This document shows positions 44,463 to 61,138 of a DNA stretch of 64,000 nucleotides, one piece after another; position 1 is the stretch's first letter, and each line of letters begins with the position of its first letter. The stretch spans positions 1 to 64,000 of the forward strand of contig CACYXD010000004.1 of the NCBI GenBank assembly GCA_902778255.1. The letters run 5' to 3'. The notes under the pieces were generated by a model, which had not been told where the DNA came from, made no database searches, and saw nothing but the letters and a program-made list of their open reading frames with translations. The position numbers and the translations under genes were made by a program. Source of the stretch: an uncultured Prevotellaceae bacterium. GTDB lineage: Bacteria > Bacteroidota > Bacteroidia > Bacteroidales > Bacteroidaceae.

Positions 44463-47400
44463 ATGAACAAAAAGAATCTTAAGAAGGTGCTCGTACTCGG
44501 TTCGGGCGCACTGAAAATCGGACAGGCAGGCGAGTTTGACTACTCGGGCTCGCAAGCCCTGAAAGCCCTGCGCGAAGAGGGCATCAAGAGCGTGTTGGTG
44601 AATCCAAACATTGCCACCATCCAGACATCGGAAGGTATTGCCGACCAAGTGTATTTCCAACCCGTGAACACCCATTTCGTCACAGAGATCATCAAGAAAG
44701 AACGTCCTGACGGCATCCTGCTGGCATTCGGCGGACAGACGGCCCTGAACTGTGGTACGGAACTCTATCTGAACGGCACGCTGAAGGAGTATGGCGTTGA
44801 GGTGCTGGGCACCAGCGTAGAGGCTATCATGGATACAGAGGACCGCGACCGCTTCGTGAAGAAACTTGATGAGATAGAACTGAAGACACCCGTGAGCCAC
44901 GCCGTAGAGAATATGGAAGACGCGCTGAAGGCTGCCCACGAGATTGGATTCCCCATCATGATCCGTTCGGCATACGCGCTGGGTGGACTGGGTTCTGGTA
45001 TCTGTCCTGACGAGAAGGCCTTTAAGGAGCTGGCTGAATCGGCCTTCACCTTTGCACCTCAGATTCTGGTGGAAGAGAGCCTGAAGGGCTGGAAGGAGAT
45101 TGAGTTTGAGTGCATCCGCGACGCTAACGACCGTTGCTTCACGGTGGCCTCGATGGAGAACTTCGACCCCCTGGGTATTCATACTGGTGAGTCAATTGTG
45201 GTGGCTCCTACTTGCTCGCTGACCGAGGAGCAGGTGAAGATGTTGCAGGAGATCACCATCAAGTGCGTGCGTCATCTGGGTATCGTAGGCGAGTGTAACA
45301 TTCAGTTTGCCTTCAATGCTGTGACCAACGACTATCGTATCATCGAGATCAACGCCCGCCTGAGTCGTTCTTCGGCTCTGGCTTCAAAGGCTACGGGTTA
45401 TCCCCTCGCCTTCGTGGCTGCTAAGATTGCGCTGGGCTACACCCTCGACCAGATTGGCGAGATGGGTACGACGAGTTCTGCATACGTGGCTCCAAGCCTC
45501 GATTATATGATCTGTAAGATTCCTCGTTGGGACCTGACGAAGTTTGCTGGCGTGAGCCGTCAGATTGGTTCGTCGATGAAGTCTGTGGGTGAGATTATGT
45601 CTATCGGCCGCAGCTTCGAGGAGATGATGCAGAAGGGTCTGCGTATGATTGGTCAGGGTATGCACGGCTTCGTGGGCAACGACCACACGAAGTTCGATAA
45701 TCTGGATGAAGAACTGGCTAACCCCACCGACCTGCGTATCTTCGCTATCGCACAGGCTCTGGAAGAGGGCTACACCATCGAGCGCATTGAGGAGCTGACA
45801 AAGATTGATCCTTGGTTCCTGGAGCGCCTGAAGCATATCGTTGACCTGAAGCACGAGTTGCAGAAGTACAACAAGTTGGAGGAGCTCTCTGACGAGTTGC
45901 TGCTGGAGGTGAAGCGCTGTGGCTTCTCTGACTTCCAGATTGCCCGCTTCGTGCTGAAGACCAAGTCAACCAACATGGAGAAGGAGAACCTCGAGGTGCG
46001 CAAGATCCGTAAGCAGCGTGGCATCCTGCCTTCAGTAAAGCGCATACCTACCGTGGCCAGCGAGCATCCCGAACTGACCAACTATCTGTATTTCACCTAT
46101 ACCCACGTACCTGCCTTTGGCGACACCAAGGGTGAGAACTACAAGGCTGCCCATGATATCAACTATTATAACAATGAGAAATCGGTGGTGGTGCTGGGTT
46201 CTGGTGCTTACCGTATTGGTTCGAGCGTAGAGTTCGACTGGTGTTCTGTGAATGCCATCAATACTGCTCGCAAACTGGGTTACAAGTCAATCATGATCAA
46301 TTACAACCCTGAGACCGTATCTACCGACTACGATATGTGCGACCGTCTGTACTTCGACGAGCTGTCATTGGAGCGTGTGCTCGACGTGATGGACTTGGAG
46401 CAGCCTCGCGGCGTGATCGTCTCTGTGGGTGGTCAGATTCCAAACAACCTGGCCATGAAGCTGTATCGCCAGGGCGTTCCTGTGCTGGGCACATCGCCTG
46501 TGAACATCGACCGTGCTGAGAACCGTGACAAGTTCTCTGCTATGCTCGACAAGCTGGGTATCGACCAGCCTGCATGGCGTGCGCTGACCTCGTTTGAGGA
46601 TGTGAAGGAGTTTGTGGACAAGGTGGGCTATCCCGTCCTGGTGCGTCCTTCATACGTGCTCTCGGGTGCTGCCATGAACGTGTGCTACGATGACGAGGAG
46701 CTGCATCGCTTCCTGAATATGGCTACTGAGGTGTCGAAGGAATTCCCTGTGGTTATCTCGAAGTTCATGACAGAGACCAAGGAGATTGAGTTCGACGCTG
46801 TGGCCGACAAGGGCGAGGTGGTAGAATATGCTATCTCTGAGCACGTAGAATATGCTGGTGTACACTCTGGTGACGCCACCATGGTATTCCCTGCTCAGAA
46901 CATCTATTTCTCTACTGTCCGTCAGATTAAGAAGATTGCCTATAAGATTGCTGCTGAGCTGAACATCAGCGGTCCTTTCAATATCCAGTTCCTGGCTAAG
47001 AACCGCGAGGTGAAAGTGATCGAGTGTAACCTGCGCGCCAGTCGTTCGTTCCCCTTCGTATCAAAGATCCTGAAGCGCAACTTCATCGAGACAGCTACGA
47101 AGATCATGCTCGACGCGCCCTATCAGCGTCCTGACAAGAGCGAGTTCGATATTGACCGCATCGGCGTAAAAGCTTCGCAGTTCTCGTTCGCCCGCTTGCA
47201 GAATGCCGACCCCGTGCTGGGTGTGGATATGAGTTCTACGGGTGAGGTAGGCTGCTTGGGCGACGACCTCAACGAGGCATTGATCAACGCCCTAATCGCT
47301 ACTGGCTATTCTATTCCTAAGGATGCCGTGCTCATCTCTTCTGGTGGTGCCAAGGGTAAGGTAAGCTTGCTGGAGCCCGCTCAGCAGTTGGCTAAGAAGG

Positions 47401-47726
47401 GCTACACCATCTATGCTACAGGTGGTACTGCTAAATTCTTCAACGATAACGGTGTGAAGGCTGTTGCCGTGAACTGGCCCGACGAGGCTGGCGACAACAA
47501 CGTGATGGATCTCATCAGTCAGCATAAGGTGGGCCTGGTGATCAACGTACCCAAGAATCACACCTCGCGCGAGCTGACCAATGGCTACAAGATTCGTCGT
47601 GGTGCCATTGACCACAACATCCCCTTGATGACGAATGTTCGTTTGGCTAAGGCTTTCATCGAGGCCTTCACAGCCATGAGTCTCAACGACGTCAAGATCA
47701 AGTCTTGGCAGGAGTATAACAACTAA
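44463..47726 (+). CDS. carB: Carbamoyl-phosphate synthase large subunit
   Basis: 1087 residues, usual length. It makes carbamoyl phosphate from bicarbonate, ammonia and two ATP for arginine and pyrimidine synthesis. Two homologous ATP-grasp halves are seen (SGALKIGQAGEFDYSG near 17; GSGAYRIGSSVEFDW near 580), with metal-binding ends EINARLSRSSALASKATGY and ECNLRASRSFPFVSK. The C-terminal MGS-like regulatory domain (from about 950) is present. carA is not adjacent; the gene has its own -7 box and a hairpin after the stop. Codon use is very GC-biased and regular, as in highly expressed genes. Confidence 0.97.
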   Translation: MNKKNLKKVLVLGSGALKIGQAGEFDYSGSQALKALREEGIKSVLVNPNIATIQTSEGIADQVYFQPVNTHFVTEIIKKERPDGILLAFGGQTALNCGTELYLNGTLKEYGVEVLGTSVEAIMDTEDRDRFVKKLDEIELKTPVSHAVENMEDALKAAHEIGFPIMIRSAYALGGLGSGICPDEKAFKELAESAFTFAPQILVEESLKGWKEIEFECIRDANDRCFTVASMENFDPLGIHTGESIVVAPTCSLTEEQVKMLQEITIKCVRHLGIVGECNIQFAFNAVTNDYRIIEINARLSRSSALASKATGYPLAFVAAKIALGYTLDQIGEMGTTSSAYVAPSLDYMICKIPRWDLTKFAGVSRQIGSSMKSVGEIMSIGRSFEEMMQKGLRMIGQGMHGFVGNDHTKFDNLDEELANPTDLRIFAIAQALEEGYTIERIEELTKIDPWFLERLKHIVDLKHELQKYNKLEELSDELLLEVKRCGFSDFQIARFVLKTKSTNMEKENLEVRKIRKQRGILPSVKRIPTVASEHPELTNYLYFTYTHVPAFGDTKGENYKAAHDINYYNNEKSVVVLGSGAYRIGSSVEFDWCSVNAINTARKLGYKSIMINYNPETVSTDYDMCDRLYFDELSLERVLDVMDLEQPRGVIVSVGGQIPNNLAMKLYRQGVPVLGTSPVNIDRAENRDKFSAMLDKLGIDQPAWRALTSFEDVKEFVDKVGYPVLVRPSYVLSGAAMNVCYDDEELHRFLNMATEVSKEFPVVISKFMTETKEIEFDAVADKGEVVEYAISEHVEYAGVHSGDATMVFPAQNIYFSTVRQIKKIAYKIAAELNISGPFNIQFLAKNREVKVIECNLRASRSFPFVSKILKRNFIETATKIMLDAPYQRPDKSEFDIDRIGVKASQFSFARLQNADPVLGVDMSSTGEVGCLGDDLNEALINALIATGYSIPKDAVLISSGGAKGKVSLLEPAQQLAKKGYTIYATGGTAKFFNDNGVKAVAVNWPDEAGDNNVMDLISQHKVGLVINVPKNHTSRELTNGYKIRRGAIDHNIPLMTNVRLAKAFIEAFTAMSLNDVKIKSWQEYNN

Positions 47727-47744
47727 TAGATACTATTTGATCAA

Positions 47745-47778
47745 ATATCGGGCGAATCTGAAAAGACTCGTCCGATAT
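47745..47778 (+). terminator. Probable terminator after carB
   Basis: ATATCGG (47745-47751) pairs with CCGATAT (47772-47778), with further inner pairing. The following T tract is weak. Confidence 0.5.
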
Positions 47779-47851
47779 GTGTTTAATGTCAACAAGGAAA
47801 GACATTGATATATTTTTTTGCATTTTCCCTTGTATATCAAATTTTTTATTG

Positions 47852-47859
47852 TATCTTTG
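47852..47859 (+). promoter_or_regulatory. -7 box for the acidic 268-aa gene
   Basis: TATCTTTG with TTG 19 nt upstream (47830-47832). The leader to the ATG at 47892 is about 25-30 nt. Confidence 0.55.
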
Positions 47860-47891
47860 CCGAGTGAAACAAGAAAAACGAGAATAAGACT

Positions 47892-48698
47892 ATGGAACAA
47901 CAAGAAGAGAAGAAAGCACTTACACTGAAAACGCTGACAAAGAGTACCGTCTGGGACATACAGGAGAATGACATCTTCCGTATGTGGGACGTTGCCGATA
48001 AAGATATTGAGTTAAGAGAAAACATGCGCCGCTGCGTGGATATCATCCGCTCAGCCTTTATGATTGAAGAGCTGCCCAACGACTCTCAAATCATCAAGAC
48101 GAAATACGAAAAGCTGGGATATAAGGTAGGACAGGTGAAGATGGATGATAACTCGAAGGTGACTTGGGCTATCAAGAAAAGACCCATCTCACGCGTCACA
48201 GACCTGACTTACGAGAATATCCGTCATATCTCCGCTGCCAAACTGATAGAGGTATTGGATCGCAACTTCGGAGGAGGATGGGACTCGCTGTCGCAGAGCA
48301 TCAAGGACATCATCGAATCGGGCTTTGACATCTCAACCACTACGCTCCCCAAGGATCGTCTGCACAAGAAAGGCGGACTCTATGAGAAGAAGGTGGCAGA
48401 CGGATTCGAGGTATTGGAAGTAGCGAAAGGCACCTGGGTAGAGGCTATCTTTGCCAAGATCAAGCCAGAAGCTGAAAAGCCACGCATGAAGTTCAGCACA
48501 TACAGCGATGATGAGGAGTCGGACGACGAGGATGTAGAGATCGAGGACAACTACAACAAGCCTGACGAGGATGATGTGGAGATTGAAGATCCCAACGACG
48601 ACGAGATCACAGAAGACAACTATTCTACGATGATGGATCTGGGCAGCGGCGATCCTGACGAGGAAGCCGAGGGAATGTCAGAATACGGCGACGAGTAA
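47892..48698 (+). CDS. Unknown cytoplasmic protein with long acidic tail
   Basis: 268 residues, not recognised. The N-terminal 60 are charged and helical. Residues about 100-140 (ISRVTDLTYENIRHISAAKLIEVLDRNFGGGWDSLSQSIKDII, shown in part) look like a small folded domain. From about 200 it is a run of Asp/Glu with short repeats (DEDVEIED, DEDDVEIEDPNDDEITED). This resembles the acidic tails of transcription or histone-like factors, but no such domain is visible. It has its own -7 box and a very strong terminator, so it is a single-gene unit. Codon usage matches the core genes. Confidence 0.8.
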   Translation: MEQQEEKKALTLKTLTKSTVWDIQENDIFRMWDVADKDIELRENMRRCVDIIRSAFMIEELPNDSQIIKTKYEKLGYKVGQVKMDDNSKVTWAIKKRPISRVTDLTYENIRHISAAKLIEVLDRNFGGGWDSLSQSIKDIIESGFDISTTTLPKDRLHKKGGLYEKKVADGFEVLEVAKGTWVEAIFAKIKPEAEKPRMKFSTYSDDEESDDEDVEIEDNYNKPDEDDVEIEDPNDDEITEDNYSTMMDLGSGDPDEEAEGMSEYGDE

Positions 48699-48839: not shown

Positions 48840-51800
48840 CTACATCAAACTATTGATGGCATCCAGCATCTCGTTATATCCATTCACCTCATGATAACGT
48901 ACCATACTAGTAGAGACACTATTGAAGAGTTTCTTGGCGCAATCAATCTTTGCACGCTCAATGCCCTTCAGTTGCATGGATTCCATGCTTCCCTTAGTTT
49001 CTGCGATAAAGAAAATGTGCTTCACTCCTGCATGGTCATTAAAGGCAATAGCCCAGTCAGGTGCATAGTTTCCTACAGGCGTTGGTATCTGGAACGAGCG
49101 TGGCAGACGGGCATATACGCAAACCTCCTCAGCCTTATCCAAATCCTCCGCAAACTGTCGTTCTCCCTTACTGTCAGTAAACACATAATCCAGGATATGC
49201 TTTTTGGCAGGGTAAGCCTTGTCAACAGTCTGCCTACTCTTCTCCTGCGTGAAGATATCCGTATCGTAGGTTTGTTCCGTTTTATTATAGCTGATATGCT
49301 CCACAATCATAGTAGCTTTCTGCTCCTTTATGAGTTTAATGACCTTGCGGATAAACTCTTCAGGATTGTTCTTGAACAACAGCAATCGAGCAGGCAGAAT
49401 ACCTTTCAGAATCCTGACAACAGTCTTTCTGGTCAGCGTAGCTCCACGAGCAATATCACCTACCAAGTCGTATGGAACGTTAGAGGTGGAAACTTCTCTC
49501 AACGTCTTTCTGCTGGTTGTCTGTTCACCTGTAAAGTTTAAATCATCATTGCCTTGTTCACCTGTAGTCACCACATATTTCATTTGTGTCACAGTCAGGT
49601 CTTTATCTATGGCGGCAATTGACTTCTTTATCAGTTCCTCGCTGTCGTAGTGAACGGTATATACATAACGATGATTGATTTCTGCCCACAGCCGCTTGAA
49701 CTCTGTCTTTGCTGCATTGTCGTTCAGTTTCTCATTCACCACCTCTGCCTTTCCGTTACCATTCTCTATCATACCCTCCAGAGCAGATGGGTCGAAGATG
49801 CCTTGTATCAGTTGGTGTACCTGCTCGCTGATAGGTAGCAGTTTCTTTGCAAGTGGTGCCAATGTACCCTGCTCCATATCCGTATGATACGACGGCAGAA
49901 TGTTTCCTTTCTCATCAGTATAGTCGTTATCGAAGAGATAGCTGATGATGCTTGCTGCCTCCTGACTGCTGATGGTATAACGCTCCGTTCCCACCATAAA
50001 GGTCTTGCCTTCGAAGTAAGCCACTGTTGCCACCGTAGGACGTTCACGCAATGCATCGTGCGTATCTTTCTGCAGGTCATCCACAAACGAAGAATAACTC
50101 TCGTTGGCAATCACCGTCAGTTTGTTGATGTCGTGCACAGCATCACCCAGGCGCTCTGCATCCATGCGGTTTCCTTGCTGATCCACACAGATACGCAGTC
50201 CACGACCAACCTCCTGTCGCTTGGCTGTAGCACTATTAGCATGACGAAGCGTACATATCTGGAATACATTGGGATTGTCCCAACCCTCACGCAGTGCAGA
50301 GTGCGAAAAGATAAAACGTGTAGGTTCATCAAAGTTCAACAAGCGTTCTTTATCTTTCAAAATCAAGTCGTAGGCAGAGATGTCATCCGATGTGTCATTT
50401 CCTCGCTTCACATCGCTGTTTACAGCATGACCTTTCTTGTCTATCGAGAAGTAGCCGTTATGTACCTGCTCTACGCTGAAGCGCTTCAGATACTTCTGGT
50501 AGTCATCTTCAAACAGCGAGAGTTTTTCGTTCAGATAGTCGTTATACTCCTTTTCAAACATTTTCCAAAGGTCACCTTTCACCACTTCCCCACTCTCGTC
50601 ATAATCTTTATAGTTTTTTACCTCATCAATAAAGAACAACGAAAGCGTCTTGATGCCCTGTTGGAACAGCTGGCGTTCTTTCTCGAAATGGCTCTTTACC
50701 GTCTCACGTATCTGTACCTGCTGGATAGTCTTCTCGCTCACATCACCCATCACCTCACCAGCTCTCAACTGGTCGCCATTACGAAAATAAATGGTATTTG
50801 TTCTAGGATTGATATCCGTAATCACAAACTCCTTATAGGCAGGCAACTTCGAAGCATCGTAGAGCGAATCACCCTGCGAGAACTTCATGGTCTGTCTTCT
50901 TGCTTGATTAGCTCCTTGCACCTCAATCTCCAGTCTCACCTCAGGAGCTTTGTTCTTTGAGAGCACGATACTATCAAAATAGATGTACGCCTGCGCACCC
51001 ATCAGGTTCTGCAACGTGATGCCCTTTACCTGTATCTTCTTTACCAGACGCTGACAGTAAGCATCGTAGGCATCCAGCGCATAAATGCAGTTATGCGAGG
51101 TCTTGTGTGTTGCCGAGTAGTTCAGTACAAACAATGGTTTGAAGTTTTTCAGCGCCCGCTGTGTGGCAGCACCCTCCATCTTCTGCGGCTCATCCATGAT
51201 GATGATGGGACGATTAGCTGCTATCACATCAATAGGCTTACGACTTTGGAAGTCGTCGCGCTTAGTGTACATAATCAGGCTGACCTTGTTCTTCGCTTCT
51301 TCCTTGAAGTCGCGTGCAAAAGCCTGCGTATTGATAATCATCACATTGATGCTGGCATCGCTGCTGAACGAATCTATCTGCGTCAGGTTCGAGCTATTAT
51401 AGATAAAGTAGCGCGCCTTCTTGCCGTATTGTTCCATGAAGTGCTCTTCCAGCATCGTGAAACTCTTATACACACCCTCACGTATAGCAATGCTTGGCAC
51501 CACGACAATGAATTTTGACCAGCCATAACGTTTGTTCATTTCGAACATTGTCTTGATATATACGTAGGTCTTACCCGTACCAGTTTCCATCTCTATATCG
51601 AGCGAACAAGCACCGAGTCCTTCTGGCTTACTCAGCAGTTTGCTCTGCGGAATGTTGCCATCCGCCTGCATCTGTTTGATATTGTCAAGCAGTTGCTTGT
51701 CACTCAGTTCCACATCCGCATTGCGCCATCCCACATAATCCTCATCATACACAATCTTGCCGTTGGTCTTACCCAAGTCGCGACGATACTGTGCATTCGT

Positions 51801-51884
51801 CTTCGAGGGCTGTCCTGCAAACACGTTTACCGTCTGCTCCACAGCTTCTGTTTGGTATTGTTGTATTTTAAACTTAAATTTCAT
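48840..51884 (-). CDS. res: Type III restriction enzyme, Res subunit
   Basis: 1014 residues. Superfamily 2 motor: Walker A METGTGKTY (from 99), Walker B IIMDEPQKMEG (DEPQ at 231-234), Ser-Ala-Thr motif NYSATHKT, and later ALREGWDNPNVFQICTLR with QEVGRGLRI, typical of type III Res. The C-terminal PD-(D/E)xK nuclease is visible: PD at 942-943 and ETK at 962-964. Res with Mod cuts DNA between head-to-head unmodified sites after ATP-driven movement. 13 bp after mod. Confidence 0.93.
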   Translation of the reverse strand: MKFKFKIQQYQTEAVEQTVNVFAGQPSKTNAQYRRDLGKTNGKIVYDEDYVGWRNADVELSDKQLLDNIKQMQADGNIPQSKLLSKPEGLGACSLDIEMETGTGKTYVYIKTMFEMNKRYGWSKFIVVVPSIAIREGVYKSFTMLEEHFMEQYGKKARYFIYNSSNLTQIDSFSSDASINVMIINTQAFARDFKEEAKNKVSLIMYTKRDDFQSRKPIDVIAANRPIIIMDEPQKMEGAATQRALKNFKPLFVLNYSATHKTSHNCIYALDAYDAYCQRLVKKIQVKGITLQNLMGAQAYIYFDSIVLSKNKAPEVRLEIEVQGANQARRQTMKFSQGDSLYDASKLPAYKEFVITDINPRTNTIYFRNGDQLRAGEVMGDVSEKTIQQVQIRETVKSHFEKERQLFQQGIKTLSLFFIDEVKNYKDYDESGEVVKGDLWKMFEKEYNDYLNEKLSLFEDDYQKYLKRFSVEQVHNGYFSIDKKGHAVNSDVKRGNDTSDDISAYDLILKDKERLLNFDEPTRFIFSHSALREGWDNPNVFQICTLRHANSATAKRQEVGRGLRICVDQQGNRMDAERLGDAVHDINKLTVIANESYSSFVDDLQKDTHDALRERPTVATVAYFEGKTFMVGTERYTISSQEAASIISYLFDNDYTDEKGNILPSYHTDMEQGTLAPLAKKLLPISEQVHQLIQGIFDPSALEGMIENGNGKAEVVNEKLNDNAAKTEFKRLWAEINHRYVYTVHYDSEELIKKSIAAIDKDLTVTQMKYVVTTGEQGNDDLNFTGEQTTSRKTLREVSTSNVPYDLVGDIARGATLTRKTVVRILKGILPARLLLFKNNPEEFIRKVIKLIKEQKATMIVEHISYNKTEQTYDTDIFTQEKSRQTVDKAYPAKKHILDYVFTDSKGERQFAEDLDKAEEVCVYARLPRSFQIPTPVGNYAPDWAIAFNDHAGVKHIFFIAETKGSMESMQLKGIERAKIDCAKKLFNSVSTSMVRYHEVNGYNEMLDAINSLM

Positions 51885-51897
51885 ACACCTGCTACGT

Positions 51898-53730
51898 TTA
51901 GAGGATTCTGCGGATAGTATCCTTACTATAGTGATTGAATATCTGCTCGAAGTTATCTGCTACGTTGTCGTTGGCGAGGCTCTTATCACGCATCACGAAG
52001 TAGTAAGGCTGCTGCTTGGCAATCTCAGTGATGGCGGTTTCGTTCACAGCCTCATCGAAGCAAGCCATCAAGTATCCATCGCTCACGTTCCAAACGGTCT
52101 TACCTGCAATCAGCGTCTGCTCGATTTTGGCGGACAGTTCAATGCCGAGATCTATCATTGTTTGGAACAGCAGGTCTTCTTCTGTGCGGTCAGGCTTGAT
52201 ATTGTCCTCAAACAAGTCTCTTTGATCGAAATCCTCTGGTGTGTAATAAACATCCTGCATGTTCGACGAGTCGAGTTTCAGCACACGGAAGCCTGTATCA
52301 AGGTCTTGTGTAGTCAGCGGACTTTCTTCTTTGATTTTCTTGCCTGCACGACGGATACGCTCTTTACCTATTTCACAAATATTCTTATAGCCCGCTTTGT
52401 AAGCCTCACTCTTCTCGTCAGTTGCTTCAGGTAATTGAACCATAATGAACTTTCGCTTACCGCCATCCTCCGCATTGAGTTGCATCACTGCATGGGCTGT
52501 TGTGGCTGAACCAGAGAAGAAATCGAGAATAATGGAATCTTTATTAGAAGCTAAACTTAAGCAAAATTTTAATAATCCAACGGGTTTAGGAGTGTCGAAT
52601 ATTAAATCAGTAAAGAAACTTTTTATTTCTCTTGTTGCCTCCTGATTTGAAGCTGTTTCTTCTAACCATGTATTAGCAAGGACTCCCTCTTTTTCTTTTT
52701 CTGATTTAAAGAGTTTGTATCTTGGCTTTCCTTCGCCTCCCTTTGGAAAAACTATTCTGTTATCAGAATAAAGATAATCATAAGTTTCTCTTTTAAATCG
52801 CCATTCTTCAGTTATTATCCTACCAGTAGGTGTTTCTACGGAATATACTGCGCCACCTTTATTAGTACATGGCATGGTTTTATATGGACCACGAGGATCA
52901 TTATCAGGATTTTTGTAATCACTTTCTTCTATTTTTGCTGGAACCTTATTGAGAATATCTCCGTTACATTTACAATAAACAGCCACATATTCATGAATTG
53001 GAGATATGTTTTTTGACAGGTTTGCTTGACTATCTCTACGCTTTCGGACACACTGTGCTAAGAAATTTGCCTCGCCAAATATTTCATCACATATTTTTCG
53101 CAAATTCTCAACTTCATTATCATCAATCGAAATTAATATCACTCCATCCTCACTCAACAAATCTTTAGCCACTTTCAGTCGAGGGTAAATCATGTTGAGC
53201 CAATCGGTATGGAAGCGGCCATTACTTTCTGTGTTAGCAACAAGGCGGTTGCCCTCTTCGTCTTCTTGACCGCTGTTGTGCATATACTCACCAGCCGACT
53301 GCGAGAAGTCGTCATTATATACAAAGTCGTTACCCGTGTTGTAAGGTGGGTCAATATAAATCATCTTCACCTTGCCCAAGTAGTTCTCACGCAAAAGTTT
53401 TAGCACCTGCAGATTATCACCCTCGATGTAGAGGTTCTGTGTGTTGTCGAAGTCTACACTCTCTTCCCTGCAAGGGCGAAGGGTATCTGTGGTTGGGGCA
53501 TTAGCCAGACGAATGGCATTGCGCTTATCGGGCCATGTGAACTGATAGCGTTCCTCAGGGCCTTCCACGATATTCTTCGACAGTTCCTGACGGAGTTGGT
53601 CAAAATCTATAGCCACCTGAGGGCGCCCTTTTTCGTCCTTCACCTCTGTCAAGCAGTTTGGGAACATTTCCCCAATTCGCTTGATATTCTCATCTACCAC
53701 ATCCGTGGTTTGCATATTTAATTTTTCCAT
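51898..53730 (-). CDS. mod: Type III DNA methyltransferase, Mod subunit
   Basis: 610 residues. Motif IV DPPY (127-130, in YIDPPYNTGNDF) precedes motif I DFFSGSAT (403-410), the beta-class order of adenine-N6 enzymes. The stretch between them (about 215-390) is the target-recognition region and is strongly AT-rich: 15 and 18 G+C of 60 at 52741-52800 and 52921-52980, against 32 and 28 of 60 at 52261-52320 and 53401-53460. This suggests exchange of the recognition domain. No simple repeat for slippage lies in the gene. It methylates the recognition site and provides specificity to Res. Confidence 0.93.
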   Translation of the reverse strand: MEKLNMQTTDVVDENIKRIGEMFPNCLTEVKDEKGRPQVAIDFDQLRQELSKNIVEGPEERYQFTWPDKRNAIRLANAPTTDTLRPCREESVDFDNTQNLYIEGDNLQVLKLLRENYLGKVKMIYIDPPYNTGNDFVYNDDFSQSAGEYMHNSGQEDEEGNRLVANTESNGRFHTDWLNMIYPRLKVAKDLLSEDGVILISIDDNEVENLRKICDEIFGEANFLAQCVRKRRDSQANLSKNISPIHEYVAVYCKCNGDILNKVPAKIEESDYKNPDNDPRGPYKTMPCTNKGGAVYSVETPTGRIITEEWRFKRETYDYLYSDNRIVFPKGGEGKPRYKLFKSEKEKEGVLANTWLEETASNQEATREIKSFFTDLIFDTPKPVGLLKFCLSLASNKDSIILDFFSGSATTAHAVMQLNAEDGGKRKFIMVQLPEATDEKSEAYKAGYKNICEIGKERIRRAGKKIKEESPLTTQDLDTGFRVLKLDSSNMQDVYYTPEDFDQRDLFEDNIKPDRTEEDLLFQTMIDLGIELSAKIEQTLIAGKTVWNVSDGYLMACFDEAVNETAITEIAKQQPYYFVMRDKSLANDNVADNFEQIFNHYSKDTIRRIL

Positions 53731-53736
53731 ATATAT

Positions 53737-53767
53737 TTTGTTGTTTCAGTTATTATACTTAATTTTG
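53737..53767 (+). promoter_or_regulatory. Plus-strand promoter for the small Cys-rich gene
   Basis: TTTG (53737-53740), 19 nt, TAATTTTG (53760-53767), a full consensus. It starts only 6 bp from the mod start codon and points away from mod. Confidence 0.65.
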
Positions 53768-53880
53768 CAATCGAACTAATATTAACTGATTATGTTTCAT
53801 TCTAATAATTCTTTTGCCTCGTAATGTTTAACCGAGTGGCGCATCAAGAGCATGCGACCTCTCATAACATTACAAGCATT

Positions 53881-54129
53881 ATGGGTAAAAGTAAAAAAAA
53901 GACACCAGCCTGCACTTGGTGCTGCTGCAAATCTCAGAAACGAGGCAAGCAAATAAGCCATCGTAAATTTCGTCGTAAAGAAGCTACTTATATCATTACA
54001 GGCAAATACGAGCTTCTTCCGATTCGCCAATGGGAAATCGTTGAACAGTGGGATTTGGGAGGTGACGGCAAACATTATTGTGGCCATTATCCTGATGAAG
54101 AATGGTATATCAAGTTGATGCGGAAATAA
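53881..54129 (+). CDS. Small Cys-rich basic protein inside the R-M locus
   Basis: 82 residues from the ATG at 53881 (MGKSKKKTPACTWCCCKSQKRG). Four cysteines in CTWCCC could bind metal. The second half is more ordered: YELLPIRQWEIVEQWDLGGDGKHYCGHYPDEEWY. I do not recognise a family. An in-frame ATG at 53824 would add 19 weak residues. The gene points against its neighbours and has its own consensus promoter 114 nt upstream, so it is probably real and independently expressed. A minus-strand ORF across the same bases has less protein-like composition. Confidence 0.6.
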   Translation: MGKSKKKTPACTWCCCKSQKRGKQISHRKFRRKEATYIITGKYELLPIRQWEIVEQWDLGGDGKHYCGHYPDEEWYIKLMRK

Positions 54130-54140
54130 AGCGTTGACTA

Positions 54141-54746
54141 TCATATCCCTACTTCCTCTTTTAATTTCATAATCTGTTGATGCAACTCGTATTTCTTACG
54201 GGTTTGCTTTTCTGTGCGGGCTCGCTTTTCGAGGGCTTCAATCTGGCGAAGCAGTTTTTCACGTTGCTCGCGATGGATAATCTGCTCTTCGATAGATTCT
54301 TCTGCTTGTGCATCAAGACCTCCAATAACAGCAACGATATTCTCCCACACTTCATCGAGCGTTAACCCTGTCAAAGGTATCTCTGCATCGGAAACATGTT
54401 TCCATTCTGATTGCTGTAGTCTCGTGTGGAAAATACAGAACTGGACGTCCTCGTCATATTCCAAAGCAAAGACAATCTTCTGAGGGATTAGTTTCTGGAG
54501 CAAGAGTATATTTTTCGAATCATAATCTCTTTGCTTGAGTTGCACTTGCAATACATAGAATTCCTTCACCTCTTGCCCTGAATGCAGGGCTGGAATCTTC
54601 GCAGGTGAGAGGTAGGCGACAATAGCCATGCGACTGACATCAGCGTCGAAACGGTCACGCTCAGCAGCTTTGAGATTGAATTTCTCAAAGACAGCCTTTT
54701 TGTATAGTGGCCTATTGACGAGAGTGGATGCAGGCAATCCGTACAT
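54141..54746 (-). CDS. DUF4391 family protein
   Basis: 201 residues. It matches my memory of DUF4391, a family found beside type III R-M and helicase genes: start PASTLVNRPLYKKAVFEKF, then DVSRMAIVAYLSPAKI, LLQKLIPQKIVFALEYD and FCIFHTRLQQSEW. The last 50 residues form a coiled coil (RQIEALEKRARTEKQTRKKY). The first part may be a nuclease-like alpha/beta fold; no catalytic motif is certain. It starts 3 bp after the helicase stop, so the two are translated together. Confidence 0.8.
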   Translation of the reverse strand: MYGLPASTLVNRPLYKKAVFEKFNLKAAERDRFDADVSRMAIVAYLSPAKIPALHSGQEVKEFYVLQVQLKQRDYDSKNILLLQKLIPQKIVFALEYDEDVQFCIFHTRLQQSEWKHVSDAEIPLTGLTLDEVWENIVAVIGGLDAQAEESIEEQIIHREQREKLLRQIEALEKRARTEKQTRKKYELHQQIMKLKEEVGI

Positions 54747-54749
54747 AGG

Positions 54750-57700
54750 CTACTTAATTACTAAGAAACAAATGAGTTCGAAATCATCAAGGCCCACATA
54801 ATGCTCTTCGAAAAGTTCACCTGCATAGCCTTCCAAGAAGCTATCAATGCTTGATTGCTCCTTGACGGAGATGATAGAGTTGATGGCTTTGCTGAGCAAG
54901 TCAGAGTATTTACCCATACGCAAACCATCGCGCGTTTCTTTGTTGAACTGGGCGCATAGCTTGACATCAGGCTTGGTCATAGGCTTGCAAAGCAAGCGCA
55001 TCTTATCCAACAGGTCTTTGGGATGCAAATGGTCAACCACCACTTCTCCATCATCAGAGATATAAACCATATAGAAAGGATGCAACTGGTTCTTGTGGTC
55101 AATATTCACGCCTGCCGTGCGGTTCTTCAATACGAAGATAGTGCCTGCAGGAGCTTGTCCGCTTCCACGTACAACCGCATGAAGACCGTTGGGAGTATGC
55201 TCCACATCATGATTACCGCTCATGTATTCCAACAAGTCGAGACGAAACTCATTAAGCCCCAAGTCCATGATGCTGACACCAGAGTTCATCTCCTCCAAAT
55301 CCACAACATCTTCCTTCAGGCGCTCCAACTGCTGACGGCGATATTCCAAGTCATCTTTTTCCTCTGGCGAGAGCAGATTGTCATCGCCTGTGGCAGTCAG
55401 TACAGTAGCCTTCATACGGCTCTCTACCCTGCCCTTCAGATTGATGTACTCATCGAGCGTCATATCAGGCCAGTAGTTCACCAACTGAATCTGTACATTC
55501 TGTGAGCCAATACGGTCTATTCGTCCAAAGCGCTGGATGATGCGCACGGGATTCCAATGGATATCATAGTTCAGAAGATAGTCGCAATCCTGCAGGTTCT
55601 GACCCTCACTGATACAGTCGGTAGCTATCAGCACATCAATGTCTTCATGCAGATGAGGATAAATGGCTTCACGCTCTTTGGATATAGGTGAAAAGAGCGT
55701 CAACACCTTATTGAAATCTAACTTTTCACGAAGTTTGAGTGTGCTCCGGGCTTCAACATCACCCGTAACCAGAGCCACATTCAAGTCATATTTTGTCTTT
55801 ATCTTCTCTGCCAAGCATTCATACAGATATAGAGCTGTATCAGAGAAGGCTGTAAAGATAATGACCTTTTTGTTATCACCATTGATGGGATGAGCAAACT
55901 TTTCTTTCAAGTCAGTAATCAGCTGTTGCAGTTTGCTATCGTGCTCAGGCGTAATACTCTCCAACATGGTGAGTAGCAAACGGATAATCTCAAGGTCGCC
56001 CATGATCTCGCGCTGCCACGATATATAGTCCATATCCTCTAACAGAATACGGTTTTTCTTCTTACCAATAGTAAACTCCTGCTCGTCTTCATCGCCATCT
56101 ACGCTTTCGTAATCATCCACGGATACACGCTTGTCGCCCTGCTGATAACGGGCAATGGCATCAAGCGTTTCCTGCATATAGTCGCGAATACGACCTAAGG
56201 TCAGGCGGAAGGAGTTGACACTTGACTCCAGGCGTTTTAGCAACTGAATATTCATCAGTCGCTGAATACCCTGCTCACGTTCCTCAATGCTCAGACGATG
56301 GCCTGTAGTGCTTTCTTCTTCCTTGTATTTATAGAGCCTGCTGTCCAGTATGAATGCAGAAGGTGCATAGATGGCTAAACGAAGTTGCTGCAACTGCTCG
56401 AATATTTCGTTGTAGTTGATGGCAGTATTAAGGTCTGTAAGATGCGGTTGGCGAGAGATGGGCTTCAAGCGCTTAGGGAATGTACCGATATCTGTCGTAT
56501 CGTAGTATTGCTGGATATGCTTGCGGCTGCGTGCAATGGTGACAGCATCGAGCAGTTTGAAGAAATCAAAGTCGAGCATTCGCAGCAGTCGTTCTGTTGT
56601 ACGTTCTTCTGGTGCAAAGTTGGCCCACATATTATAGGCAGTCTGAGCCTGCCGGAAAATATCGTCAATGCCACGCTCTGTGGGAAGCAAGTCGTTGAAG
56701 GCTTCCGACTGTCCCTCGTAAGCCAACTGCAACTGGTTCTTCAAATCGTTGAAGCGGTTATTAACTGGCGTTGCAGATAGCATCAGGACTTTGGTTTTCA
56801 CACCAGCCCTGATAACCTTGTTCATCAATCGCAAGTAGCGATTCTCGCGAGGGTTCTCGCCATTCTCATCGGTAGATACCTTACCACCATTGCGGAAGTT
56901 ATGGCTCTCGTCAATAACTACCAAATCATAGTTGCCCCAGTTCACTCGCTCCAGATCAAGATCATTGCTGCGCCCCTGAGTTCGTGAGAGGTCGGTATGG
57001 TAGAGTATATCGTAGTTCAAGCGGTCTTTTGCCAAGGGATTGTTCACATAGTTCTGGCGATAAGTGTTCCAGTTCTCGAAGAGTTTCTTGGGACAGAGTA
57101 CCAAGACCGTACGGTTGCGACTCTCAAAATACTTGATAACACTTAGAGCCGTGAAGGTCTTACCAAGGCCTACGCTATCTGCAAGGATGCAACCATTATA
57201 GCGTTCCAATTTGTTGATAACGGCAAGGGCTGCATCACGTTGGAAGTTGTATAGCTTATTCCAGATGGCAGAGTTCTTGAAGCCTGTGGCTTCCTTGGGC
57301 AGTTCATCTTCGCTGATGTCCTCCAGGAACTCGTTGAAAATATTATAGAGCGCGACGAAATACAGAAACTCAGGTGCATTCTCCTTATAGGCATTGCTGA
57401 TGCTGTCTATCACCTCCTCTGTGACTACTTGCAATCGACTGCTGTCATTCCACAACTGATTAAAGAGGTCGATATAGGCTTTCGAAAAAGGCGTTTCAGC
57501 CTTCTGAATCATTGTATAGGCATTGTTACCTTTCTCACATCCAAGATCTACAGTAGTGAATCCGTTGATGGGTGAATAGCTGGTTTCATCCAGATTGATA
57601 AAGCCCATCATCTGCTCGTTGGTTCTGTTCGACTTAAAACAAGCCTTCTGTCGAATCCATTCTGCACACTCGCGAGCAATAGCCTTTTGTGTGAGTTCGT

Positions 57701-57977
57701 TGCGTAATTTCACCTCAAACTCAGAGCCATAGAGTGTACGTTCTCTGTCTAAACGGGGAATGTAGAATTCTCGTTGTTGCTTAGGAGTCTTTTCGGTAGT
57801 AAACGTAGGCGAGGTAAAAATGAAACGTAGTTCTTTTATATCTTTCAGAGCTTCCTTCAGTTCCTGAAAGGCATAGATAGAGAAGCAGGATGCCGCAATG
57901 GACAGTCGGCTCCCTGATTGCATTTGCTGCATCAAATCATCACGCAGCGTTTTACCTACGTTGTTTATCAGCTCCAT
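54750..57977 (-). CDS. Large SNF2-type helicase with PLD-like N-terminus
   Basis: 1075 residues. Residues 1-185 have the layout of a phospholipase D-like domain (RLSIAASCFSIYAFQELKEAL) but no HxKxxxxD motif; the expected region reads MMGFINLDETSYSPINGF. Q-motif-like YNFQRDAA (243-250), Walker A DSVGLGKT (267-274), DESHNF (356-361), SATPVNNR, and the second RecA domain ending NYDIHWNPVRIIQRFGRIDRIG give a complete SF2/SNF2 motor. The C-terminal 250 residues are unknown. It is encoded with DUF4391 and lies upstream of mod-res. A structured ~300-nt region precedes it. Confidence 0.85.
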   Translation of the reverse strand: MELINNVGKTLRDDLMQQMQSGSRLSIAASCFSIYAFQELKEALKDIKELRFIFTSPTFTTEKTPKQQREFYIPRLDRERTLYGSEFEVKLRNELTQKAIARECAEWIRQKACFKSNRTNEQMMGFINLDETSYSPINGFTTVDLGCEKGNNAYTMIQKAETPFSKAYIDLFNQLWNDSSRLQVVTEEVIDSISNAYKENAPEFLYFVALYNIFNEFLEDISEDELPKEATGFKNSAIWNKLYNFQRDAALAVINKLERYNGCILADSVGLGKTFTALSVIKYFESRNRTVLVLCPKKLFENWNTYRQNYVNNPLAKDRLNYDILYHTDLSRTQGRSNDLDLERVNWGNYDLVVIDESHNFRNGGKVSTDENGENPRENRYLRLMNKVIRAGVKTKVLMLSATPVNNRFNDLKNQLQLAYEGQSEAFNDLLPTERGIDDIFRQAQTAYNMWANFAPEERTTERLLRMLDFDFFKLLDAVTIARSRKHIQQYYDTTDIGTFPKRLKPISRQPHLTDLNTAINYNEIFEQLQQLRLAIYAPSAFILDSRLYKYKEEESTTGHRLSIEEREQGIQRLMNIQLLKRLESSVNSFRLTLGRIRDYMQETLDAIARYQQGDKRVSVDDYESVDGDEDEQEFTIGKKKNRILLEDMDYISWQREIMGDLEIIRLLLTMLESITPEHDSKLQQLITDLKEKFAHPINGDNKKVIIFTAFSDTALYLYECLAEKIKTKYDLNVALVTGDVEARSTLKLREKLDFNKVLTLFSPISKEREAIYPHLHEDIDVLIATDCISEGQNLQDCDYLLNYDIHWNPVRIIQRFGRIDRIGSQNVQIQLVNYWPDMTLDEYINLKGRVESRMKATVLTATGDDNLLSPEEKDDLEYRRQQLERLKEDVVDLEEMNSGVSIMDLGLNEFRLDLLEYMSGNHDVEHTPNGLHAVVRGSGQAPAGTIFVLKNRTAGVNIDHKNQLHPFYMVYISDDGEVVVDHLHPKDLLDKMRLLCKPMTKPDVKLCAQFNKETRDGLRMGKYSDLLSKAINSIISVKEQSSIDSFLEGYAGELFEEHYVGLDDFELICFLVIK

Positions 57978-58736: not shown

Positions 58737-59330
58737 TTACCCCCTAGAAGATATTTTCGAGATTTCCGTGTATATACGCTGAACGGGCAAGCCCATTACA
58801 TTGAAATAGCTGCCATTCAGACTGGTGACACCTATATAGCCAATCCACTCCTGAATACCATAGGCGCCTGCTTTGTCGAAAGGCTTATAAACATCAACAT
58901 AATGGTTTATCTCCTCATCAGTAAGTTGCTTAAAGGTTACATCGGTAGTCACGGAGAAATGACGCTGCTCTTGCTTCGTGGTCAGACAGACGCCCGTTGT
59001 AACCTGATGAGCTACGCCACTCAGCTTTTTCAGCATCCTGCGGGCATCATCGGCATCAACAGGCTTCCCCATCACTTCATCACCCACAATCACAACTGTA
59101 TCGGCGGTGATAATCAGGTCATCATCAGCCATCAGGTCGCGATAGGCCAATGCTTTTTCACGGGCAATAAACTCGGCAATCTGACTCACGGGCAGGTCGG
59201 CTGGATAACTCTCTTCAATATCGGGCAGCACCTTTACCTCGAAAGGAATGCCCAGGCCGCCCAGCAACTCACGGCGACGCGGCGAGTTACTGGCCAATAT
59301 GATATGATAATTCTTTAAGTTCTCAAACAT
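58737..59330 (-). CDS. maf: Maf-family nucleotide pyrophosphatase
   Basis: 197 residues. The family start IILASNSPRRRELL is at about 9-22, and the later ITADTVVIVGDEVMGKPVDAD holds the catalytic Asp region. Maf/YhdE-type enzymes hydrolyse dTTP/UTP or modified nucleotides and are linked to septum control. The ATG at 59330 overlaps the kdsC stop (TGATG); ATG at 59336 and a further upstream start are also in frame. 3' flank is the repeat-rich gap. Confidence 0.93.
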   Translation of the reverse strand: MFENLKNYHIILASNSPRRRELLGGLGIPFEVKVLPDIEESYPADLPVSQIAEFIAREKALAYRDLMADDDLIITADTVVIVGDEVMGKPVDADDARRMLKKLSGVAHQVTTGVCLTTKQEQRHFSVTTDVTFKQLTDEEINHYVDVYKPFDKAGAYGIQEWIGYIGVTSLNGSYFNVMGLPVQRIYTEISKISSRG

Positions 59331-59848
59331 CACCATCCAAAAGCTTTTTCGTCCTTCAGCCATTTGCCCTGAGCACGAAGCACCTGCTCAACGACGTCGC
59401 GACCGCAACCGTAACCACCATCACGATGACTGACGTATAGGCTCACTTCCTTTACTTCCGTGCATGCATCCTTAGGACAGACAGGACACCCTACCCTGCG
59501 CATCACTTCCAAGTCGGGGATATCATCGCCCATATACATCACCTCGTCCTCACTCAGGCCGTATTTATCGAGGAAGGCTTCATAGGTTTTAATCTTCACG
59601 GAACATCCTACATAGATGTCCTGTACGCCTAAAGCCTCATAGCGCACGCGCACAGATTCCACATTGGCACCTGTCATAATAGCTACATGAAGTCCCATCT
59701 TCACAGCCAGTTGAATGGCATAGCCGTCTTTGATATTCACAGTACGCAGAGGCCATCCGTCGGCTCCCAGCGTAATCGTCTCTGCAGAGAGCACACCATC
59801 AATATCGAAGATGATGGCGCGTATCTTACTTAAATCGTAGTTAATCAT
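59330..59848 (-). CDS. kdsC: KdsC-type HAD phosphatase (KDO 8-phosphate phosphatase)
   Basis: 172 residues. HAD motif [12 protein letters not shown], motif [12 protein letters not shown], and motif [14 protein letters not shown] are clear. No cap domain, as in KdsC tetramers. It makes free KDO for lipopolysaccharide. It overlaps the DUF2520 gene upstream by 8 bp. Confidence 0.9.
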
Positions 59849-60611
59849 TGTCTATCTCTTGAATACTTTTACTCATTATATCATAGATTTGCTGCATCAG
59901 CGGATGATCGGCAAGAAGGGCTTTCTGACGCTCCATCACGTTTGCATCCCTACGCACGGCAGGCCCTGTCTGGGCATCGCGTGGATGCAGGGTCTCTACC
60001 TTCTGAGCCGTTTCCTCGATAAGTGGCAGCATAGCTTCGAAAGGCAGGCCGTGGGCCTCAAGTATCTGGGCAGAGAGGGCATAGCAATGGTTGGCAAAAT
60101 TACAGGCAAAGACCGCTGCCAGATGCAGATAGCGCCGTTCATCGCTAGAGAGCTCATGAACATGGGGCGAGAGTGACTCGGCTATCTCGCGTGACAATGC
60201 CAGCGTCGGTTGGTCGCTTGCTTCTATAAATAAATGTACACGCGAGAAATCCACCGCTTTTTCCTTTGAGAAAGTCTGCATAGGATACAGCACGCCGCAA
60301 TGCGCTTGACTGCCGAAGATGGTCATCGGCATAGAACCTGCGGTATGCAGAAATACTTGCTGTTCCCTACCCTTTTGCAACGATGAAATCACGTCTGGCA
60401 GAGCGGAGTCCTTGACAGAAAGAATATAGGCATCGGCCTGCTTAGGAAGTGCCTCTATGCGATCGGTAGCAGCACAACCTACTGCTTCTGCCAGCGACGA
60501 GGCCGAGGCCAGCGTGCGACTATAGACAGCCAAGACACGATGGCCACCTTTGCTCATGGCCTTTGCCAGATGCGTAGCCACCCTGCCTGCGCCTACAAAT
60601 ACGATATCCAT
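59841..60611 (-). CDS. NAD(P)-binding DUF2520 protein
   Basis: 256 residues. The N-terminal Rossmann fold shows [16 protein letters not shown]; the C-terminal half matches DUF2520 ([18 protein letters not shown], then [18 protein letters not shown]). The family resembles ketopantoate or pyrroline-5-carboxylate reductase-type dehydrogenases, substrate unknown. Its ATG overlaps the nitroreductase stop by 1 bp (TGATG). Confidence 0.87.
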
Positions 60612-61138
60612 CAGAACTTGTCAATGTGTACGTTTTCCCATTTCAGCTTATCCTCGTTCTGAGGCTGACGCTCATCAGCTTTATGACCAAAGGCAATGAC
60701 ACACAGCACGTTGTAGTTCTCAGGAATATCGAGGATGCCACGAATCACAGTATCGGCACTGGTACCATCGTTGAGTCCGCGGCCGCGCATCTGCACCCAG
60801 CAAGAGCCAAGCCCCAGCTCTTCGGCCTGATACTGCATAGAGATAGCAGCAATGGAACCGTCCTCTATCCAACAGTCGTTCTGCACAGGATCACCCAACA
60901 CCACAATGGCCAATGCGGCACCTTTGATGAGCTGGCCACCCATCTCCTTGGCATCGGAAAGTTTCTCAAGATCCATCTTATCATCTACCACCACGAACTG
61001 CCAGGCACGCTGTCCTTTTGAAGTGGGTGACATCAGGGCTGCACGAAGAATCAGCTTCACGTCCTCGCCATCAATTTCCTGTTCTGTAAACTTACGATGC
61101 GAACGGCGCATCTGCGCCAGGGTCTTAAAGTCTGTCAT
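60611..61138 (-). CDS. Nitroreductase-family flavoprotein
   Basis: 175 residues. FMN-binding pattern RRSHRKFTEQEID near the start and MSPTSKGQRAWQFVVV in the middle-left; GLGSCWVQMRGR and IAFGHKADERQP follow. Members reduce quinones, nitro compounds or flavins; the natural substrate is unknown. It heads the minus-strand group nitroreductase-DUF2520-kdsC-maf, all overlapping, a likely operon. Confidence 0.9.
   Translation of the reverse strand: MTDFKTLAQMRRSHRKFTEQEIDGEDVKLILRAALMSPTSKGQRAWQFVVVDDKMDLEKLSDAKEMGGQLIKGAALAIVVLGDPVQNDCWIEDGSIAAISMQYQAEELGLGSCWVQMRGRGLNDGTSADTVIRGILDIPENYNVLCVIAFGHKADERQPQNEDKLKWENVHIDKF

Follow-up and report, generated by a model that had tools for sequence, protein, structure and literature searches.

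Descriptions of type III restriction-modification (R-M) usually give it two genes, one for a methyltransferase (Mod) and one for a restriction subunit (Res). In the 64,000-nucleotide stretch of contig CACYXD010000004.1 analyzed here (called the window; uncultured Prevotellaceae bacterium, GenBank assembly GCA_902778255.1), mod and res lie together with two more genes, which encode a Snf2-type helicase (HEL) and a protein of the DUF4391 family, for which no function is known. This four-gene variant of type III R-M is real and widespread, and within a subfamily spread over several phyla all close loci that allowed a test carry the two additional genes. The gene set and its order are conserved, and the dependence of HEL-DUF4391 on mod-res is one-sided. 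The motor motifs of the helicase and the motifs of Res and Mod are intact, the catalytic site of a phospholipase D (PLD)-type nuclease is absent from the helicase, and HEL co-diverges with DUF4391 and Res. The account that we favor, and hold with about even confidence, is that the locus is an extended type III R-M system of four co-inherited genes, in which HEL and DUF4391 would form a motor module and leave the cutting to Res.

The four genes in the window

All four open reading frames (ORFs) are found where the original prediction, made from the letters of the window, had placed them: together on the minus strand, in the order HEL, DUF4391, mod, res, with gaps of 3-13 bp within each pair. 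HEL (54750-57977, minus strand) is a 1075-residue Snf2-type helicase of superfamily 2 (SF2) with a degenerate PLD-like N-terminus. Its top PADLOC model is PDLC01075 'HKD+Snf2' (421 bits, residues 170-1073), the Pfam domains SNF2 and Helicase_C also match, and the motor motifs read DSVGLGKT, DESH, SATP and QRFGRIDR. The DUF4391 protein (54141-54746, minus strand; 201 residues) matches PF14335 with 107.7 bits, against a cut-off of 29.9. The C-terminal stretch of this protein matches designed coiled coils in profile comparisons; a search of solved structures with the DUF4391 profile returned two such designs and one match at an E value of 1.8. In the phage record phi1605 (L145:6457-7170) the DUF4391 protein is labelled a methyl-accepting chemotaxis protein, perhaps because of this coiled coil.

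Mod (51898-53730, minus strand) is a type III beta-class DNA methyltransferase with DPPYNTG and FSGSATT motifs, and its 792 bits against the PADLOC model MTase_III place it among type III Mod proteins. Its middle is its least conserved part across the 63 complete loci described below, and this variable region is probably the target recognition region. Res (48840-51884, minus strand) matches REase_III with 963 bits and adjoins mod; it carries helicase motifs and the PF19778 endonuclease, thus combining an SF2 ATPase with a PD-(D/E)xK nuclease as a type III restriction subunit should, and its endonuclease site (PDWAI...ETKG) is intact. Both proteins are homologous to the solved subunits of EcoP15I (E 2e-66 for EcoP15I Mod).

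HEL and DUF4391 are separated by 3 bp, DUF4391 and mod by 410 bp, and mod and res by 13 bp, a spacing that makes translational linkage within the HEL/DUF4391 and mod/res pairs plausible. In PADLOC, the models for mod and res carry the name type III and that for the helicase is 'HKD+Snf2'; no model matched the DUF4391 protein at an E value of 0.001. Judging from these models, annotation would probably call the locus an ordinary type III system and overlook two of its four genes.

Conservation of the gene set and its order

Bacterial and archaeal species genomes were scanned with HEL, and the best 80 of at least 591 relatives were collected with their flanks; the locus genes were then called by profile search of all ORFs. 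Five of the 80 loci have less than 700 bp of downstream room. DUF4391 follows HEL in 75 of the 75 loci with at least 700 bp, mod follows the pair in 65 of the 65 with at least 3 kb downstream, and HEL, DUF4391, mod and res occur in this order on a single strand in all 61 loci with at least 6 kb. Because 61 of 61 testable relatives hold both set and order, more than chance adjacency is involved, and the proposal that HEL and DUF4391 are a dedicated addition to type III R-M, with an order worth checking across genomes, has stood up well. By record title, complete loci come from eight phyla (Bacteroidota, Bacillota, Pseudomonadota, Spirochaetota, Verrucomicrobiota, Lentisphaerota, Fibrobacterota and Armatimonadota). 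The last of these is represented by one locus (L093), in which res is split over two ORFs and whose record we take to belong to that phylum.

The HEL-DUF4391 gap has a median of 4 bp over 78 loci and is at most 60 bp in 63 of them, and gaps of at least 300 bp occur at the DUF4391-mod junction in 36/69 loci and at the mod-res junction in 36/64. One locus (L049) has the changed order RES-HEL-DUF4391, with the three genes still together and mod out of view at the contig end; another from the same genus (L271) shows RES-HEL up to its contig end, with mod likewise out of view. A 551-residue ORF lies between RES and HEL in L049, and its N-terminus resembles OLD-type ATPases by eye.

The four-gene set also occurs in the chromosome of E. 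coli CFT073, on an E. coli plasmid and an Enterobacter plasmid, on an Acinetobacter plasmid in which mod is interrupted by an insertion sequence, and in a phage record. In CFT073 the set lies behind a WYL-domain regulator gene (L141:8481-9386) that ends at the HEL start, and on several plasmids WYL genes are annotated under or before the HEL match. Of 5426 complete E. coli genomes, 87 (two of which were examined) contain DNA that resembles a part, at most 42%, of a Pasteurellaceae helicase of the HEL family. The orthologues known from E. coli make laboratory tests feasible. With the DUF4391 protein of the window as query, no relative was found in plasmids or phages at an E value of 1e-5, nor in viral contigs; it is probably too divergent for such searches, since the HEL query does find loci of this kind.

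One-sided dependence on mod-res

The idea of a dedicated module would have been in trouble if HEL-DUF4391 occurred mostly without mod-res, or the reverse. None of the 80 closest loci with enough room has HEL-DUF4391 without mod-res, and mod-res was seen without the pair in 3 of 13 cases from the 101 genomes of the window's family. Ten of these 13 full-length Res relatives are on contigs with HEL and DUF4391; the other three (L191, L192 and L193) accompany mod, with no HEL or DUF4391 in the stretches examined and no close HEL found in their genomes. Conversely, ten of the 12 HEL places in the same genomes share a contig with Res, and the other two are on contigs of 5.9 and 3.3 kb. The linkage of HEL-DUF4391 to mod-res is therefore one-sided: mod-res occurs without HEL-DUF4391.

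A Res tree with 86 rows groups 75 linked and 4 stand-alone Res proteins on one side, opposite 7 distant stand-alone type III Res proteins. The tree was built by a quick method, has a long branch (L204) and is biased in its make-up, linked Res having been gathered via the helicase or DUF4391 and stand-alone Res via one family. The Res proteins of L191-L193 nest among the linked ones, so these loci look like losses of HEL and DUF4391. Other loci are incomplete: in L234 mod and res are full-length, DUF4391 is present only as a fragment and HEL is absent, and L033 and L034 carry a 52-residue HEL remnant and a stop-broken DUF4391 beside mod. More distant helicases of the HEL family (about 40% identical) occur without mod-res, and then beside another methyltransferase.

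The missing nuclease site

The catalytic motifs are almost invariant over the 63 complete loci. Walker A is exact in 62 HEL proteins and conservatively changed in one, DESH and QRFGR(I/V)DR are present in 63 and SATP in 62, and PDWA(I/V) and E(T/S)K of Res and DPPYNTG of Mod are present in all 63. By comparison, the N-terminus of the window HEL does not have the PLD catalytic site HxK...GSxN. This site was surveyed in 115 helicases (130 helicase ORFs minus 12 shorter than 900 residues and 3 identical duplicates). It is found in none of the 95 type III-linked helicases, of which 89 have a complete N-terminus and 6 a cut or weakly aligned one; the helicase of L047 retains a GSST relic. It is found in 7 of 8 sister helicases that adjoin a different methyltransferase, the N-terminus of the eighth (L267) being cut by the contig end; one locus counted here (L272) has a weak methyltransferase match of 128 bits. 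It is also present in L273, whose partner is off the contig, and absent from 11 helicases with no partner seen before the contig end. In the loci seen, then, the helicases carry the nuclease site where there is no Res, and lack it where there is one.

The sister helicases are about 40% identical to HEL over the whole length and have a clear HGK(L/M)YH...GSSN site, with a Pfam PLDc_2 match in L050. In that locus (L050:5172-13481; similar systems in L228, L265, L266, L268 and others) the partner is a methyltransferase of type IIG-like Eco57I/TaqI_C make-up, in place of mod and res. A YhcG nuclease gene is embedded between the sister helicase and methyltransferase of L050. Because this family with its PLD site is homologous to HEL over the whole length, the HEL N-terminus does look PLD-like, as originally described; the catalytic residues are what is missing, and the accompanying hint that this N-terminus might be a second nuclease is not supported by the count of 0/95. 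An identity as an active PLD/HKD nuclease-helicase was rejected for the window and for all 95 type III-linked helicases on the same ground, and HEL more likely serves as motor or adaptor than as an effector nuclease. A Pfam scan recognized no nuclease domain in HEL or DUF4391. Most simply, the site would be missing from the type III-linked lineage by loss. Because it is missing there, cutting would have to come from Res, and its absence, in the loci seen, only where Res is present suggests a testable idea, namely that motor and nuclease have been combined from different restriction families.

Co-divergence of the four genes

Distances were compared across 63 complete loci drawn from the window, L061-L140 and L141-L145. 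For each of the six gene pairs the distances are correlated more strongly than in any of 2000 permutations. When the other genes are held fixed, the partial correlation is highest for MOD-RES (0.58; bootstrap 0.45-0.68) and HEL-DUF (0.43; 0.26-0.56), followed by HEL-RES (0.30; 0.05-0.47) and DUF-RES (0.29; 0.13-0.49), none of which is reached in 500 permutations. DUF-MOD is smaller (0.16; 0.01-0.27; reached by 5/500 permutations), and HEL-MOD is near zero (-0.04; -0.18 to 0.14). These values suggest that it is mainly Res, rather than Mod, that ties HEL-DUF4391 to the complex. In a three-way clustering, the DUF4391 cluster of L079, L082, L101 and L141-L144 mismatches the usual Mod-Res cluster, which suggests that the HEL-DUF4391 module may have been exchanged between Mod-Res lineages.

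What might the additional genes do?

The favored model would work as follows. Mod would mark self DNA and recognize the sites, Res would make the cut, and HEL and DUF4391 would be a second ATP-driven motor module acting with Res. DUF4391 would most likely act as an adaptor by which the helicase docks on the Res complex, although such physical docking is an inference. The motor might extend restriction; it could, for instance, move or load Res, clear bound proteins, or relieve the need for two opposed sites. A fuller version pictures a hybrid machine: a PLD-nuclease/Snf2 helicase of type IIG-like origin would have been joined to Mod-Res by way of DUF4391, would have given up its own nuclease and would today be the dedicated translocase that drives Res. 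This would free type III cutting from the usual requirement for two opposed sites, and the operon would also serve as a carrier for exchangeable embedded defense genes. We offer this version tentatively and think it rather doubtful as a whole.

Several points weigh against the model of a Res-dependent motor module. The apparent loss of HEL and DUF4391 from some loci that keep mod-res shows that a mod-res pair can last without them; and because res is also only a partial ORF in L034, that locus is not a clean case of HEL loss alone. The loci compared for co-divergence were chosen by helicase similarity, and the partial correlations remove shared ancestry incompletely. The bootstrap range for HEL-RES is wide, and DUF4391 keeps its small correlation with Mod. 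The direction of change at the PLD site, loss here or gain in the sister family, was judged without an outgroup. The sister family was first met through weak DUF4391 matches, and these give at best a weak tie: Pfam matches near the methyltransferase N-terminus in three genomes have E values of 1.6e-7, 5.1e-6 and 6.2e-6 (only the first over the cut-off), another scan gave 28.2 bits against a cut-off of 29.9, and a profile comparison scored 26.6, where the best of 25 controls reached 23.1 and a different region of the same protein 27.5, so that the resemblance is not clear of controls. Finally, peptides of the extra helicase of Eco86II, a type III system with N4-methylcytosine (m4C) specificity, were not found in a preparation with partial cutting, and its authors considered it unneeded for cleavage, according to the accessible part of the report (PMC8259958).

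HEL-DUF4391 could instead be a separate defense effector or sensor that shares only the methylation mark of Mod with the rest of the locus, and blocks or strips unmethylated phage DNA without cutting it. Such a mode has been proposed for Snf2 helicases, DrmD of DISARM among them, and DrmD is the next PADLOC match of HEL after its own model (131.8 bits; 156.6 bits against the NCBIfam DrmD model, with a cut-off of 610). The existence of mod-res without HEL also fits. However, the divergence of HEL is tied to Res and not to Mod, and no locus among the closest 80 that offered enough room has HEL-DUF4391 and mod but no res; we consider a separate effector unlikely, if worth keeping in mind. A somewhat smaller chance goes to a role after the cut, with HEL-DUF4391 as a translocase acting on the cut phage DNA, either processing it or preventing repair of its ends. 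An intact motor, the lack of a nuclease site of its own and the constant company of Res would all suit such a translocase. Degradation after the cut would nevertheless need a host or embedded nuclease, given that neither HEL nor DUF4391 has a recognized nuclease domain, and Snf2 motors translocate mostly on duplex DNA.

A third function would be to regulate or support methylation, for example by preventing self-attack by Mod-Res or by restraining Res until the host is fully methylated. The small partial correlation of DUF4391 with Mod would agree with this, and partner dependence is possible in principle: in two m4C type III systems efficient methylation by Mod required Res (PMC8259958). On the other side, HEL and Mod show nearly no partial correlation, and the Eco86II methyltransferase worked independently of the extra helicase (PMC8259958), though that helicase is of another kind; a methylation role seems improbable to us. 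We attach practically no weight to the pairs being chance neighbors in a defense island. The unrelated defense-type genes embedded in these loci do show that the region collects genes, but the count of 61/61 relatives with set and order kept, over eight phyla, refutes chance adjacency, and all six distance correlations lie beyond the 2000 permutations. On balance, the motor module dependent on Res is the account to which we return.

Embedded genes and genomic surroundings

A small plus-strand gene had been seen to part the two pairs in the window, and indeed one of 101 residues without a Pfam match (53824-54129, plus strand) sits in the 410-bp gap. One relative was found among the loci compared (L085), at the same junction and in the same opposite orientation. 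It is 55% identical on the plus reading versus 42% on the antisense reading, and because it is more alike on the former the gene looks real. Weak partial relatives of the protein (E up to 0.01) appear in 1459 plasmid records, mostly from Klebsiella and Enterobacter. A minus-strand ORF (53797-54144) whose start lies in an ATGA overlap with the DUF4391 stop was considered as a coupled gene and set aside as probable antisense noise of the plus-strand gene. A small gene common to this junction and that of E. coli CFT073 was also rejected, the two being without similarity.

The junctions of HEL, DUF4391, mod and res often host embedded defense-type genes. Same-strand junction ORFs of at least 110 residues number 73, from 42 of the 80 loci (73 of 103 embedded ORFs listed, some probably spurious), and they are placed between DUF4391 and mod (35), mod and res (30) or HEL and DUF4391 (8). 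Pfam matches include RhuM (5), Fic (5), Abi_C (4), Schlafen AlbA_2 (4) and the YhcG/DUF1016 nuclease (3), with GmrSD, HEPN, AAA and others once or twice each. The PADLOC phage defense candidate models PDC-S05, S23 and S04 match five junction ORFs each, probably the same five. Defense-type genes inside an operon have reportedly been described as genetically embedded defenses in a 2024 preprint by Payne and colleagues. Two loci (L081 and L091) have two mod-type genes each, between DUF4391 and res.

On the res side, the window continues with a carbamoyl-phosphate synthase large-subunit-like gene (carB) and a genus-core gene (together 44463-48698). The core gene adjoins res (47892-48698) and is present in 27 of 30 genomes of the genus, the window's own included. 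On the other side lies a maf/HAD/oxidoreductase cluster (58737-61138), with maf-like and HAD-like genes as the next minus-strand genes before HEL. In a search for the empty site, carB and maf were not found within about 1.5 kb of the homologue of 47892-48698 in the 14 relatives examined, and no empty site was identified among them.

Comparison with known systems

In the open-access literature, with subscription papers and most preprints outside the scope of the search, no description of the four-gene HEL-DUF4391-Mod-Res set was found; the accessible text there mentions DUF4391 in a single paper, which by its title deals with something else. The closest precedents in gene content are Eco86II and BspHIV, m4C type III systems in which a further SF2 helicase gene lies 5' of mod, and the available portion of the report counts an extra helicase near mod-res in more than 500 genomes (PMC8259958). 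As far as that portion goes, Eco86II resembles the window locus in having its helicase gene directly before mod and res. The Eco86II locus was placed in E. coli NCTC86 (L147:1030-10447) by gene order and annotation, and its parts are different. Its helicase is DrmD-like (663 bits, versus 79 bits to PDLC01075, the best model of the window HEL); its best model is PDLC02619, and only motor patches of 161 and 184 residues align with HEL, at 35% and 30% identity. Its Mod is 27% identical to that of the window over 389 aligned positions, its Res gives no significant alignment (E 0.44), and both have other best PADLOC models. No DUF4391 gene is annotated in the NCTC86 locus, unlike in the window. The four-gene set is thus not the three-gene Eco86II type, which is ruled out by the different helicase, Mod and Res and by the lack of an annotated DUF4391.

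The sister HKD-Snf2 loci (for example L050, L228 and L266) have a helicase of the same family as HEL, with the difference that its PLD site is intact and its partner is an Eco57I/TaqI_C methyltransferase (domains as seen in L050) rather than Mod-Res. DISARM is similar in having a Snf2 helicase near a DNA methyltransferase. Its definition includes DrmA, DrmB and DrmC, and the eight flanking ORFs scanned contain no other DISARM gene, seven having other Pfam matches and one no match; HEL was itself rejected as DrmD on the NCBIfam score given above.

The nuclease of CglI has a PLD fold. In the accessible description of that system, the nuclease and a helicase-like ATPase are joined as two subunits (PMC5737866). 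The BREX-related and CxC/Pbe groups have an HKD domain fused to an SF2 helicase, with DNA methyltransferases adjoining in some loci; the HKD domain is taken there as an active nuclease, and the parts of those reports available describe no Mod-Res pair or DUF4391 (PMC12839542, PMC10853773). The DUF499 ATPase, which together with an N6-methyltransferase makes up the core of the BREX-related systems, was absent from the locus proteins and the eight flanking ORFs scanned. Type III R-M is further defined by an asymmetric site, methylation of one strand and ATP-dependent cutting that needs two sites. The locus is most like type III R-M of the EcoP15I kind (Mod2Res1), with which it shares homologous Mod and Res subunits and their catalytic motifs, and from which it differs by its two extra conserved genes, HEL and DUF4391.

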